Source: a virus
Length of the DNA: 49,325 nt
Reading direction: 5' to 3' (one strand)
Virus record (IMG/VR): IMGVR_UViG_3300022200_000068
Span: 1 to 49,325 of that record
Part shown: piece after piece, positions 1,520 through 6,365 of the stretch
Layout of the letters: every line of letters begins with the position of its first letter
Numbering within the stretch: the first letter of the stretch is position 1
The notes under the pieces: generated by a model
The model's database searches: none
What the model saw: the letters and a program-made list of their open reading frames with translations, nothing else
Told to the model about the DNA's origin: nothing
Translations under genes and position numbers: made by a program

Positions 1520-3571
1520 CTACATACCGACAGGAGGTGTTGGAAACGCGTTCTCTACCGGAGCGCCGTTCATTAACTCCTGGCCTTGTGGCTGAGCCTG
1601 TTGGACAGGCCGCGCCCCTGGTATCAGCGGGGGTTGCGTCGGCGCTTTCGGCACGACTTTGTCCGTGTGCATGTCGAGATTCTTAGCCACTTCGCGCAGA
1701 ACTTCCGCACGCCCCTCGATGCCGGTAATCTGCATGTCGTATGGGTTTGCCGTGTCACGCAGGAACTCAAGACGCCTCGCCTGCGCCGCCTCACGAGCGA
1801 TCAGGCTCTTAGCCCCGCGAGCACGTACTTTTACATCGCCTTTAATCTCCTGGTCGTCGGCGTACATCATGTTGTGCTGGTACAAACGTTCGAGCAATGG
1901 GGTCATTATATGCAGGTCGATCATCGCCACAGCCTGCTGCATAACCTTGCCAGCATTCTGCATGAGCATGTTCATGCCTGTTGCCGTGCGGCCAATGCCA
2001 CCACCAGGAGCCGTGCCAGACATATAACGAGGGACTGCCACAACTTCGTCAGCGATAGCCGCGAACCGCTCGTACACGGCCATCAGTTCAGCCGCGTTGC
2101 TGTCGGGTTGAAAGAACCCCATCGGCGGGGTAGTGGCGTTGGTCATCGGGTCGTTGATGAACTGGTGGATTTTCCACGGGTACAGGTTGGTGATGTCCTC
2201 CCCTTGTGGGAGACGGTCTACGTTTATCCACACCTGCGGACCCGACGCGATCCCCATGTTGTTAGCCAGAGCGCGTGCTGACGCGTTGCACATATCCTCG
2301 CAGTCGCGCATCTGGTCCATCGGGCTGTTGCCCCAGAACATCCCCGGCAGTTCTTCCCACGAAACCTTGTAGTACCCACGACGCCCCAGCGGGTCCGGGT
2401 TAAGCACGGCCTTAATAACCCAACGCCCTACCAGCCATACCTCCGCTTCGTACTCAGCCAACGGGTCAGGCACTTCTTCCTCAGACATCCCCCACTCGAC
2501 AAGCATACTTCCCGGCACCGACCCCCACATCTGCAGGGCATCTATCAGCTTGCTGGAGTTTTCCGACGAAGTCACAGCGTCTTCCGCTGACGCCCGCTCA
2601 GCGTCAAGGTCCGTCCAGTCACGCAGCCCGCCACGTCCGTACTCATCCAGCACGGCGTCAATGGCGCTGTCAGAGTACCCCTCCACACCCTTCATCGCGT
2701 GCAGGTCTTTGCGGTTGAGGCGGTGCATCTCAATAAAGTCGCCATCATCCGGCGTCGCCGCGCCCTCCGACGGGAACACCATGAACGGATCGACGCGCTC
2801 CCACTCCAGGCGCAGTTCTTCTCCAGTCGTCACCTCCCACGCGCCGCCAATGCCTTGGCCCCACTGCGCCGTCGTGCGCTTACGCACTACCGGGCCTTTT
2901 ATCACCATCGCAGGAAACGTCGTGAAGTCGTCCAAACACTCCGACAGCGCCTGCATGAACCCACCTTCGACCAGCTGATCCTCCATGTAGGTCTCCATAC
3001 GCTCAGCGACTTCACGCGACTCCTGCTGCATCTCCTCCGTGATCTCAGCTTTTATCTGTTTCAACACCGCCCGCATGTCGATGGGCTGACCCGATGCGGC
3101 AAGCAGCTGCATCTCTGCTTCTGCACGGACCCACGCCTCCTGCATTTTCTCCGGCGACATCTCCGGCAGAGGCGTCGGGTCCACCGTCCACGGCTTCTCC
3201 GTCCCGTTAGCCAACAGCCCGTCACGCAGCCAGCTGGATATAGCCCGCGCCTTCGCGCTGGAGATCATCATGTAAACCTCCGACCCACCCTGCTCGCGTA
3301 TCTGCTGGAGTTTCTCCGGCGAATACTCGCCGCGCCGCTGACGCAACGACCGCAGCATACGGTCCTCGACGTTCTGCTTTACGCGCTTGTTAGTCTCCCA
3401 CACCTTCCGCACGTGCCCCGCCAGCCCCTGTATGATGGGTCGGTTGTTCATTTTCTCCGCTTCGTCGCGTGCCTGCTTGTCCAGCACGTGCTGGCCGACC
3501 GCCGACATCACGCCGCCGAGGGACAAACCGCCCGACGGAGCCGGGTTGGAAATCTGTACGACATTGCTCAT
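1520..3571 (-). CDS. Portal protein
   Basis: This 683-residue protein follows the large terminase directly and has the size of the larger portal family. Portals form the dodecameric ring at the capsid vertex through which DNA is packed and ejected. The N-terminal half has the charged helical character seen in such proteins (for example SSAKARAISSWLRDGLLANG), and the C-terminus is Pro/Gln-rich. I place the start at ATG 3571, because GGAG sits 6 nt upstream and overlaps the terminase stop. An in-frame GTG at 3583 would add four residues and lacks its own ribosome-binding site. The assignment comes from size, sequence character and position. Confidence 0.85.
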   Translation of the reverse strand: MSNVVQISNPAPSGGLSLGGVMSAVGQHVLDKQARDEAEKMNNRPIIQGLAGHVRKVWETNKRVKQNVEDRMLRSLRQRRGEYSPEKLQQIREQGGSEVYMMISSAKARAISSWLRDGLLANGTEKPWTVDPTPLPEMSPEKMQEAWVRAEAEMQLLAASGQPIDMRAVLKQIKAEITEEMQQESREVAERMETYMEDQLVEGGFMQALSECLDDFTTFPAMVIKGPVVRKRTTAQWGQGIGGAWEVTTGEELRLEWERVDPFMVFPSEGAATPDDGDFIEMHRLNRKDLHAMKGVEGYSDSAIDAVLDEYGRGGLRDWTDLDAERASAEDAVTSSENSSKLIDALQMWGSVPGSMLVEWGMSEEEVPDPLAEYEAEVWLVGRWVIKAVLNPDPLGRRGYYKVSWEELPGMFWGNSPMDQMRDCEDMCNASARALANNMGIASGPQVWINVDRLPQGEDITNLYPWKIHQFINDPMTNATTPPMGFFQPDSNAAELMAVYERFAAIADEVVAVPRYMSGTAPGGGIGRTATGMNMLMQNAGKVMQQAVAMIDLHIMTPLLERLYQHNMMYADDQEIKGDVKVRARGAKSLIAREAAQARRLEFLRDTANPYDMQITGIEGRAEVLREVAKNLDMHTDKVVPKAPTQPPLIPGARPVQQAQPQGQELMNGAPVENAFPTPPVGM

Positions 3572-3573
3572 GA

Positions 3574-5913
3574 CTAACTCCACACGTAGTTAACGCGTTT
3601 GACTTCCCGGCGCTGCGGCTTGCCGAACGCCGTGCCCCGCAGCTGGTTGCCCTCTATCACCATGCACGCGTACTGACACGCGTCGGCGCTGTGGCTGAAC
3701 TCGTTTTTCTCCGGTTTTGCCGACGCCTGTCCCTTGCGGTTCAACTCGTAACGATACCCGTGCCGAAACCCTTGTATCACCACCCGACACTCGGGGTTTA
3801 TCTGGAACACCTGTTTGCCGCCTATGTTGCTCGACAACAGACGCTCGACGGCCCCAATGCGCGGGTCTATGCGGTTGCTCGCTGGCTTGGCCACCTGAAA
3901 CCCCGCCATTTTCACCACATCTATAGGCGTTATCTCGCCCACCTGCTGCTTGTCCCACCCCGCCGGGTCCGCAGCGACGACGAACGTACACCCCGCCCAA
4001 CGGCCTTGGGCCAGCATCGGGCGCAGCTTACGGTCCAAGAACGTATCTATGCTCATATTCTCGCTGGTCAACTCAGCCAGCACGACCACCTGTCCGGTCA
4101 CGTTACGCTGCATGAGCACCGCCGCAGGCGTCCGCCCGAAGTCCAGGCCGATAATCACCGGGTACGCCTCCGAGCGCAGAGGCAGGTAGGGCTTCTTAGC
4201 CACGTGCACGTCGTAGTCGAACGTCTTGTCGTACACCGGCACACCAGACAGCGACCGTCCGTACCTACACCGCAGGTATACGTCTACGTAGTCCTGCGAT
4301 TTGCCGGGGATGATGTCTATATAATAGGTGGGGTCGAGGTTGGCGACGTTGTCCGCATCGGGGTTGATCCACCACTTCGTATCGTCGTAGCCCTCTACAG
4401 GCTCTCCGTCCGGCTCCTCGTTGCGCCTGCTCAGCCACTCGTCGCGGCTGAGTATGGCTGGCGGCTGTATGTGTATGCTCCAGTTCGACGGCGGTTCGTC
4501 CATTTTCTCCTGGTGCCACGTGTCCATATCCGGCATGTTCGTATCGAACAGAGCGCATGAGCGCGTCGGCGTGCCGTCAGCACCAGAGGGGTAGCGTTTG
4601 AGACGAGCCAACAGGCCGTCGACAACATCCGGGTGCAGCTCGCGCCACTCGTTCCCGTACAAGAACGTAATTTCCAACGAAAGTGCACGCTGTACATCCT
4701 GCGGCGTGTCCAACGGCATGAACCACACCTCGAAATCAAGGGTGGTGCCGTCGCTCAGCGGCTGCTTTATATAATAGGACTTCTCGCTCTCCTTCCACGC
4801 ACCCCACACACCCGGCGGGAACCACGCAAAAAAAGTCTTTCGCACCGTCTTGGCAAGCTGGTCAGCCGTGTTACGCACAATGAGTGCGCGAGACTTGCGC
4901 TGCCCTTGGGCATTAGGTTCTTGTTGCAGCGCTAGACTGACCAGATCATGACAGCAGCACACGGACTTGCCGGAGTTGTGGTGGATAGTTCCATCTACGG
5001 TCACATAGTTGTTCGTGTCAAGAACTTGTAAGTCCCAGTAAGTTTCCTTGATGTCCTTCCGACTAACGCTTATGCTAGCGTTAGACCACTCGGGTGTGGA
5101 GTAAGCGTGTGAACAAGAGCGCCCAGCTTGTAGCCGCCTACGCAGACGGCGAACGAAGCTCAACGGAAATTGCAAAAATCGTCGGACTAAGCCCACGGTA
5201 CGTACGTCGGCTGATGCTGCGTCATAACATGCCACGGCTGAAGGAAGGGGCGCAGCACGCTGAAAACAATCACCAGTATAGAGCTGGCCGATCAGTTGAC
5301 CTGGACGGGTATGTGCTGGCGCTCGCTCCAGAAGACCACCCGCTCCTGCGTAAGCGTAATGTCTACGAACATCGTCTGGTGATGGAGAAGAAACTTGGCC
5401 GTTACCTCCATAAAGATGAAGTAGTCGACCACGCAGACGGGCTGACTCTGCATAACACGCCAGAGAATCTACGGCTTTTTCAGTCAAACGCAGATCATCT
5501 GCGTGAGACGACAACGGGAACCCCGCGACGTTGGAGCCAAGAAGGTCTGAGCAACATTGGCGCACGGACTGACCGTGGGCGAAAGATTCGACGGGTCGAT
5601 ATGTACCGTCGGCGCAGAGAAGCTGGTGAAATCCGGCTGCGTCAAATCCTCCTTGCGGCGTTGAAACTCGGTACAGATAGTCCGCACCTTTGGGGAACGC
5701 TCCACCACTTAGAGCCATTTCAAATCGACCCGTCTTCTCGTTCCAGCTTAGAACGCGCATTGGTCGGTCTATACGAGAAATGGGGAGTGGGCCATACTCT
5801 GTAACGACTTCCGTGTCTCCGTGCAGACACCCCACAGGGCCAGCCAGCACGCGCACGTACGCCTCTGACTGCATGAAATCCCACTGAGTGGGCGTAGCGA
5901 CAAACTCCGTCAC
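3574..5913 (-). CDS. terL: Terminase large subunit, interrupted by an intein
   Basis: The reading frame encodes 779 residues, 285 of them an intein (residues 29-313). Joining the flanks gives a 494-residue terminase, a usual length. The join recreates the Walker A loop GPVGSGKS: GPVG lies before the intein and SGKS after it. The C-terminal nuclease half shows RNase H-fold acidic motifs: GLDFG, then AADPAG, then HSADA near the end. The enzyme is the ATP-driven packaging motor and the headful or cos nuclease. Because the intein splits the P-loop, the precursor should be inactive until it splices. The start overlaps the small-subunit stop by 4 nt, and the stop lies just before the portal start. 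Confidence 0.93.
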   Translation of the reverse strand: MTEFVATPTQWDFMQSEAYVRVLAGPVGCLHGDTEVVTEYGPLPISRIDRPMRVLSWNEKTGRFEMALSGGAFPKGADYLYRVSTPQGGFDAAGFHQLLCADGTYRPVESFAHGQSVRQCCSDLLGSNVAGFPLSSHADDLRLTEKAVDSLACYAESARLRGRLLHLYGGNGQVSSPSPDDVRRHYAYAGAGGLLERAPAHTRPGQLIGQLYTGDCFQRAAPLPSAVACYDAASADVRTVGLVRRFLQFPLSFVRRLRRRLQAGRSCSHAYSTPEWSNASISVSRKDIKETYWDLQVLDTNNYVTVDGTIHHNSGKSVCCCHDLVSLALQQEPNAQGQRKSRALIVRNTADQLAKTVRKTFFAWFPPGVWGAWKESEKSYYIKQPLSDGTTLDFEVWFMPLDTPQDVQRALSLEITFLYGNEWRELHPDVVDGLLARLKRYPSGADGTPTRSCALFDTNMPDMDTWHQEKMDEPPSNWSIHIQPPAILSRDEWLSRRNEEPDGEPVEGYDDTKWWINPDADNVANLDPTYYIDIIPGKSQDYVDVYLRCRYGRSLSGVPVYDKTFDYDVHVAKKPYLPLRSEAYPVIIGLDFGRTPAAVLMQRNVTGQVVVLAELTSENMSIDTFLDRKLRPMLAQGRWAGCTFVVAADPAGWDKQQVGEITPIDVVKMAGFQVAKPASNRIDPRIGAVERLLSSNIGGKQVFQINPECRVVIQGFRHGYRYELNRKGQASAKPEKNEFSHSADACQYACMVIEGNQLRGTAFGKPQRREVKRVNYVWS
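4975..5829 (-). mobile_element. Intein in the TerL Walker A motif (285 aa)
   Basis: The insert begins with Cys (block A, CLHGDTEVVT), as class 1 inteins do. It has a block B-like segment with a conserved His (GFHQLLCADGTYRPVE), and it ends with block F and block G features (YWDLQVLDTNNYVTV, then HHN) before a Ser +1 extein residue. These are the residues needed for protein splicing. On the sense strand, about 150 residues between block B and block F look like no known nuclease and are Arg- and Ser-rich. That stretch is the reverse complement of the HNH gene on the other strand. The intein is therefore a mini-intein on one strand with its endonuclease on the other. Confidence 0.9.
5109..5804 (+). 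CDS. HNH homing endonuclease, encoded antisense inside the TerL intein
   Basis: The 231-residue protein has an N-terminal helix-turn-helix (about residues 15-40, SSTEIAKIVGLSPRYVRR). An HNH_3-type nuclease domain follows at about residues 86-123 (YEHRLVMEKKLGR, then EVVDHADG, then TPENLRLF). The C-terminal part (about 165-196) is basic and resembles tails I recall from phage HNH proteins. I choose GTG 5109 because GGAG lies 7 nt upstream; GTG 5094 is in frame but has no such site. The whole gene lies within the intein and runs against terL. From about 5560 rightward it overlaps, on the other strand, the intein's own splicing domain (blocks A to B). It would cut intein-free terL alleles and so drive homing. 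Confidence 0.87.
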   Translation: MNKSAQLVAAYADGERSSTEIAKIVGLSPRYVRRLMLRHNMPRLKEGAQHAENNHQYRAGRSVDLDGYVLALAPEDHPLLRKRNVYEHRLVMEKKLGRYLHKDEVVDHADGLTLHNTPENLRLFQSNADHLRETTTGTPRRWSQEGLSNIGARTDRGRKIRRVDMYRRRREAGEIRLRQILLAALKLGTDSPHLWGTLHHLEPFQIDPSSRSSLERALVGLYEKWGVGHTL

Positions 5914-6365
5914 GCTTCTATCCAGTCAATATCGTTGGCAGGCATGTTGATAACCGTCTCGTGCCTTGCACCTCCTGGCGCAACTATGGTGAACGTGAGC
6001 GCCGGACCTGTCTGTGCGGAGTTATCTTTAGGCTCCAGGTTAGCCAGCTTAGCCAACGTCTTGAACGCCTCTATGCGTGTGTTGCCCGGCATATCAGGGT
6101 CGTGAATAACATCCCGCATCTGCGGCAACGAATCGTGTACGACTTTTCTGCACCGCGCCCTGAAGGCTGTCCCGTCGTCATCTACCGCCTGCTTCGCAAC
6201 GAGCAACTTCTGATTGAACAACACATCCTGCTCGTACGCACGTATAGCCTCTGGGTCAAGACTGTATGTGTGGCACACGTCATCGAACGACTCCGTACCG
6301 ATTGCTACATCAATAAAGAACCGCTCAGGGATATCGTCCAGGTTATAAGAGACTAACGCGCTCAT
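5910..6365 (-). CDS. terS: Terminase small subunit
   Basis: The 151-residue protein lies directly upstream of terL, with a 4-nt stop/start overlap, in the usual packaging-gene order. It is helical and acidic at its N-terminus, where a segment (FDDVCHTYSLDPEAIRAYEQ) could form a DNA-binding helix-turn-helix. A middle segment (TRIEAFKTLAKLANLEPKD) is typical of small-terminase-like proteins. The C-terminus is beta-rich. The small subunit recognises the packaging site and regulates TerL. No strong ribosome-binding site precedes ATG 6365. It appears to be the first gene of the leftward late operon. Confidence 0.8.
   Translation of the reverse strand: MSALVSYNLDDIPERFFIDVAIGTESFDDVCHTYSLDPEAIRAYEQDVLFNQKLLVAKQAVDDDGTAFRARCRKVVHDSLPQMRDVIHDPDMPGNTRIEAFKTLAKLANLEPKDNSAQTGPALTFTIVAPGGARHETVINMPANDIDWIEA

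Follow-up and report, generated by a model that had tools for sequence, protein, structure and literature searches.

An HNH endonuclease gene antisense to a P-loop intein in a viral terminase and in other ATPases

In a 49,325-base viral record, referred to here as the window and used for all position numbers, the gene for the large terminase subunit (TerL) is interrupted by an intein that carries an HNH endonuclease gene on its opposite strand. We interpret this element as a mobile intein of class 1 type with its homing endonuclease encoded separately, as an antisense gene, and give this reading a probability of roughly 0.88. A stop-codon test and its controls exclude chance as the origin of the arrangement. 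We infer splicing, antisense transcription, target cleavage, and homing. Judging from the anatomy, TerL would be made with the intein inside, and the intein would then excise itself, restoring GPVGSGKS. The nuclease, which combines a helix-turn-helix (HTH) with an HNH domain, would be produced from an antisense transcript that has a start site of its own. It would cut TerL genes lacking the intein, at the conserved codons of the P-loop, after which repair would copy the intein into the cut gene. Through most of the HNH gene, the intein frame would stay open merely as a linker.

The intein and the gene opposite it

TerL is encoded by a single unbroken open frame of 779 amino acids on the minus strand (3574-5913), which rules out a split or fractured intein. 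The intein splits the Walker A loop as GPVG/C...HHN/SGKS and occupies exactly 285 codons, with Cys1 at 5827-5829, the block B His68 at 5626-5628, and His284-Asn285 at its end, followed by Ser+1 (Table 1). The sequence-only reading had described class 1 ends in this frame, namely a first Cys, a block B His, and HHN before Ser; these residues are all present, and C1, H68, H283, H284, and N285 are invariant in a 21-sequence alignment. HHN followed by Ser or Thr is found in the window and in the relatives of its clade, and the Thr of the block B TxxH motif is Ala in the window and variable among relatives. The terminase profile match begins at TerL residue 311.

Table 1. Features of the interrupted terminase region, in window positions
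Feature	Position	Strand	Basis or remark
Portal-like gene (putative)	1520-3583	-	Follows TerL on the minus strand
TerL C-extein, SGKS..., ATPase and nuclease	3574-4974	-	PHROG_2 terminase large subunit, E=1.5e-19
Intein, 285 aa: Cys1...His68 (block B)...His283-His284-Asn285	4975-5829	-	Frame, alignment, profile, fold
Intein C-terminal splicing blocks F and G, residues 251-285	4975-5079	-	Pfam, alignment, AF2
Weak promoter-like element, candidate, TTGATG-17-TATGCT	5048-5076	+	8/12 matches, under scan threshold
Central linker of the intein (residues 90-250), read from the strand opposite the HNH gene	5080-5562	-	pLDDT; low sense conservation
Shine-Dalgarno-like GGAG	5098-5101	+	7 nt 5' of GTG 5109
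HTH-HNH endonuclease gene, 231 aa, GTG start	5109-5804	+	HNH_3, PHROG_10730, AF2
HNH motif: H108, N116, N120, H130	5430-5498	+	All four invariant in alignment
HNH residues 168-227, dual-coding zone opposite intein blocks A-B	5610-5789	+	Both proteins conserved
Intein N-terminal splicing blocks A to B, residues 1-72	5614-5829	-	Alignment; AF2
TerL N-extein, ending ...LAGPVG at the Walker A start	5830-5913	-	Empty alleles read LAGPVGSGKS
Gene in small-terminase position (putative)	5910-6365	-	Gene order

Separate database matches, proposed earlier as a check, were obtained for both proteins. By itself, the window sequence has a weak Pfam Intein_splicing match (E=0.02, under the cutoff); 15 of 19 aligned relatives match this domain at E<0.01 (best, 2.5e-9), and a profile built from the family alignment picks up the Spl DnaX mini-intein (4e-7) as well as DnaB inteins. 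In the AF2 model, residues 1-80 have a pLDDT of about 75-96 and the C-terminal residues 251-285 are also confident, while the linker, at about 30-50, is predicted to be mostly disordered. Foldseek gives DnaB and DnaE mini-inteins as the best PDB matches of this model (top E 5.6e-5; the structure alignment was made without the rows of named phages). The HINT fold of a class 1 intein is thus found through both the Spl DnaX profile match and Foldseek. A canonical endonuclease domain between blocks B and F of the sense frame was considered and rejected: the HNH gene is antisense, and the sense center is unconserved and predicted to be mostly disordered, as anticipated by the earlier remark that the sense frame has no nuclease motif.

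The plus-strand open frame runs from 5094 to a stop codon at 5802-5804, and the gene likely starts at GTG 5109, behind GGAG. Its product has an HTH at the N-terminus and an HNH_3 domain (E=3.5e-7, above the cutoff), and matches PHROG_10730 "HNH endonuclease" almost end to end (E=7.5e-55). A full HTH plus HNH protein had been placed on the opposite strand, wholly inside the intein, and 5109-5804 does lie within 4975-5829. Comparison of the HNH model with the PDB by Foldseek gave no strong match; the only match, to I-HmuI, is weak, and we therefore claim no structural family. On the basis of its invariant motif and a putative target site of its own, for which empty alleles are found, the protein appears to be an HNH homing endonuclease.

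Conservation on each strand and evidence of mobility

HNH relatives were gathered from IMG/VR, GTDB genomes, and phage records. The codon-position comparison suggested with the original observation indicates that the HNH protein is held opposite the linker and that both proteins are held opposite blocks A-B. Opposite the linker, differences concentrate on HNH position 3, the counterpart of intein position 2 (0.27/0.21/0.50 at HNH positions 1/2/3); those in the flanking parts of the intein and in the extein are at sense position 3. HNH identity opposite the linker is 0.53 versus 0.16 expected, and sense identity is 0.24 versus the 0.19 expected from the HNH protein alone, the expected values coming from full resampling that ignores shared ancestry, an effect that is small as judged from the free sense linker and from HNH residues 151-167 (identity 0.25). 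In this stretch, the HNH protein alone is conserved, and the sense protein hardly at all.

A different pattern is found where the splicing blocks are read. In the window's clade, in which the HNH protein has about 230 amino acids, its last ~60 residues face intein blocks A-B, and all three codon positions are held there (0.19, 0.23, and 0.21 per site). By the same resampling, HNH identity in this zone is 0.53 versus 0.21 expected and sense identity 0.54 versus 0.19, and the AF2 model of the HNH protein has a pLDDT of about 90-95 across most of residues 168-227. Because both proteins are conserved beyond mutual constraint and the HNH model is confident, the zone encodes two conserved domains on complementary strands. 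The alignments show blocks A-B and the HNH C-terminal domain to share ~60 codons in the window's clade, with selection acting on both.

Because the nuclease is encoded on the strand opposite TerL, it would need a promoter of its own, as the sequence-only reading had said. A sigma-70 promoter scan found none above threshold. Just 5' of the HNH start, an inverted repeat, CTAACGCT-TATGCT-AGCGTTAG (5063-5084), overlaps the promoter-like element in Table 1. Across the family, Shine-Dalgarno-like matches are longer ahead of HNH starts (mean 4.5) than ahead of starts in alternative plus-strand frames (3.5; Mann-Whitney p about 1e-6).

Three TerL relatives with 54-58% identity (L102-L104) are empty at the exact insertion site and read LAGPVGSGKS without interruption. 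The intein DNA is more similar than the host gene in many pairs, and HNH DNA is 93-98% identical in pairs in which the C-extein is 72-88% identical, a pattern that movement of the element between hosts would produce. Distances between intein and HNH correlate at 0.58 in Mantel comparisons and those of each with the extein at 0.51-0.54, correlations that by themselves do not distinguish homing from vertical inheritance or co-inheritance. The DNA of one relative, L101, is identical to that of the window for 2.36 kb apart from 15 substitutions within 78 bp (5217-5294), where the HTH region of the HNH gene ends; they look like the trace of a short gene conversion.

Some relatives have lost parts of the nuclease. 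The inteins of L234 and L255, 135 and 152 amino acids long and in the same P-loop, lack the HNH core, and their leftover antisense frame carries stops while the splicing blocks are intact; L260 retains the HNH C-terminus alone, and the HTH is gone from L237 and L266. A mini-intein that remains after endonuclease loss is a familiar end state of intein evolution, and the relatives without the HNH core are ordinary mini-inteins of 135-152 amino acids. Their intact splicing blocks suggest that splicing needs neither the HNH protein nor the linker. Broken plus-strand frames in homologues had been named as grounds for rejecting the nested gene, and such breaks are confined to these few shortened inteins, L234 and L255, which resemble ordinary endonuclease loss.

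One interpretation of the decayed genes, together with the correlation between HNH and extein distances, is that the intein is real and vertically inherited, with a plus-strand HNH gene that has become a relic and has ceased to drive homing. We consider this improbable, since HNH conservation is far above what the sense strand imposes, substitutions fall mostly on HNH position 3, Shine-Dalgarno matches are enriched at HNH starts, intein DNA exceeds the host gene in similarity in many pairs, and relatives have empty sites.

Distribution among relatives and the open intein frame

The recommended search for relatives with the same antisense layout was productive: 97 of 98 HNH relatives with a spanning opposite-strand frame share one antisense phase and lie inside P-loop inteins. 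Dozens of divergent lineages of viruses have kept this arrangement. In this phase, intein codon positions 1/2/3 face HNH positions 1/3/2. The IMG/VR and GTDB loci were picked via the HNH protein, so that openness of the opposite frame was not selected for. A reciprocal search with the sense protein found the HNH gene in 79 of 79 inteins, one of them N-terminally shortened, and no true internal HNH stops; the stops flagged in 37 HNH frames fall outside the gene, either ahead of the start or level with or beyond the natural C-terminus. When only the last 42 residues around the C-terminal junction were used as the query, the HNH gene or a remnant was found in all 73 inteins with enough upstream DNA to be counted. 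In a second group of relatives, with a shorter HNH protein, the gene appears to sit between blocks B and F. A plasmid search gave two partial matches, both outside inteins. The sequence-only reading had noted neither that the antisense layout is common to the family nor that the DNA for the HNH C-terminus also encodes splicing blocks.

The interrupted P-loops are mostly in terminases of several families, and the named carriers include Ymer-group Pectobacterium phages, Pseudoalteromonas phage PHS3, and an Enterobacter cloacae chromosome. P-loop inteins with an antisense HNH gene are also found in Sak4-like, TraG-like, and helicase-like ATPases (L045, L050, L063, and L065). In some phages, HNH proteins neighboring the terminase have a part in packaging, and the HNH protein here could chiefly serve such a role, for example by helping terminase packaging, with its antisense placement used for regulation. 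This is marginally less probable still than the relic, because the family also occurs in P-loop inteins of the non-terminase ATPases and because the HNH gene is nearly always within an intein at the putative target site.

In PHS3 (L001, KX912252.1 17336-18511), the annotated TerL start lies after the intein, and the full TerL frame, L001:1691-3814, takes in the N-extein and the intein. In the Ymer-group Pectobacterium phages (L002-L005), the whole TerL-intein frame is called "hypothetical protein", with no annotation for the antisense HNH gene.

To obtain expected stop numbers, the HNH gene was reshuffled synonymously with its protein and wobble usage kept. The intein frame across the HNH gene contains 0 stops versus about 400 expected in 63 non-redundant loci, and stop counts in the two other antisense frames and the two sense alternatives are roughly as expected. 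Among HNH relatives outside inteins, L098-L100 have 10 stops versus 12 expected and ten from phages and plasmids have 81 versus 82, so that the thirteen controls together have 91 in that frame versus about 94. The absence of stops, with controls at expectation, indicates that translation of the intein, and not the HNH sequence, keeps the frame open. The idea that an HNH gene landed antisense in TerL, leaving TerL broken or in two pieces and its own reverse complement open by accident, might appeal to the annotation of PHS3 as an HNH plus a shortened TerL and to the barely conserved sense protein opposite the linker, but it is the least probable explanation given these stop counts, the invariant splicing residues, and the HNH-less mini-inteins that retain both frame and splicing blocks.

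Comparison with known elements and implications

Canonical inteins carry their endonuclease in frame within the intein protein. Like canonical homing-endonuclease inteins, the present element combines a splicing domain and an endonuclease at a conserved active-site motif, and has empty alleles and mini-intein derivatives; unlike them, it encodes the endonuclease in a gene of its own on the other strand. Split inteins in fractured genes, accompanied by a free-standing endonuclease, were reportedly described by Dassa et al. in 2009. They resemble our case in having an endonuclease gene separate from the intein frame, but in those systems both the intein and its host gene come as two parts, whereas here the intein frame is unbroken across the endonuclease gene.

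Two further kinds of element offer partial parallels. ShiLan-type HNH insertions in phage methylases are on the same strand, in a third frame, and without splicing blocks, and the host methylase has been proposed to tolerate the insert unspliced (PMC11855218). As in those insertions, the HNH gene here overlaps a host frame that is open through the insertion, and its distribution is disjunct; however, the window's HNH gene is on the opposite strand and a splicing domain is present, which argues against a ShiLan-type element. An HNH relative does lie inside a gene of Cylindrospermopsis phage Cr-LKS3 that is annotated as a DNA methylase (L186:956-2806; OM373202.1 39044-40894), on the same strand and out of frame with that gene, which stays open; this cyanophage thus has a ShiLan-like element. 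Antisense homing endonuclease genes also occur in group I introns, among them Didymium L2066 and S956, and antisense expression was demonstrated for L2066 (PMC9548176). These introns share with our element an antisense endonuclease gene in a self-splicing mobile element, but they are RNA elements in rDNA with no opposite protein frame and hence no dual coding.

An HNH-family intein is known (Dalgaard et al. 1997, as cited in PMC5050341 and PMC8966425). The literature searched contained no antisense endonuclease within an intein, and a preprint with "non-canonical architecture" in its title (Gosselin, Arsenault, and Gogarten, bioRxiv 2025.01.02.630785) may cover related cases. Term searches for an antisense endonuclease found no mention in the accessible text of PMC5050341, PMC7156551, PMC8966425, and PMC10448857, on phage and other inteins, and the main text of the Ymer-group paper contains neither HNH nor endonuclease (PMC11445585). 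Annotation overlooks such elements, as exemplified by the TerL and HNH genes of the Pectobacterium phages and the shortened TerL of PHS3.

Inteins are usually viewed as single proteins that splice and in many cases also cut. With splicing and cutting as two genes on opposite strands, the nuclease could be regulated apart from the essential packaging protein. Natural examples of complementary strands that each encode a conserved domain are rare; the clade with dual coding at blocks A-B is a well-sampled one and can serve studies of overlapping genes and of engineered gene entanglement. We lean, by a small margin, toward the broader view that these elements are a widespread and undescribed class of P-loop inteins. 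In such a class, the two strands would entangle a splicing domain with a homing endonuclease, ~60 codons would specify two conserved folded domains at once, the entanglement would have been fixed in one phase, and the endonuclease would be tied to an essential host frame. If so, entanglement with that essential host frame may slow the loss of the endonuclease.
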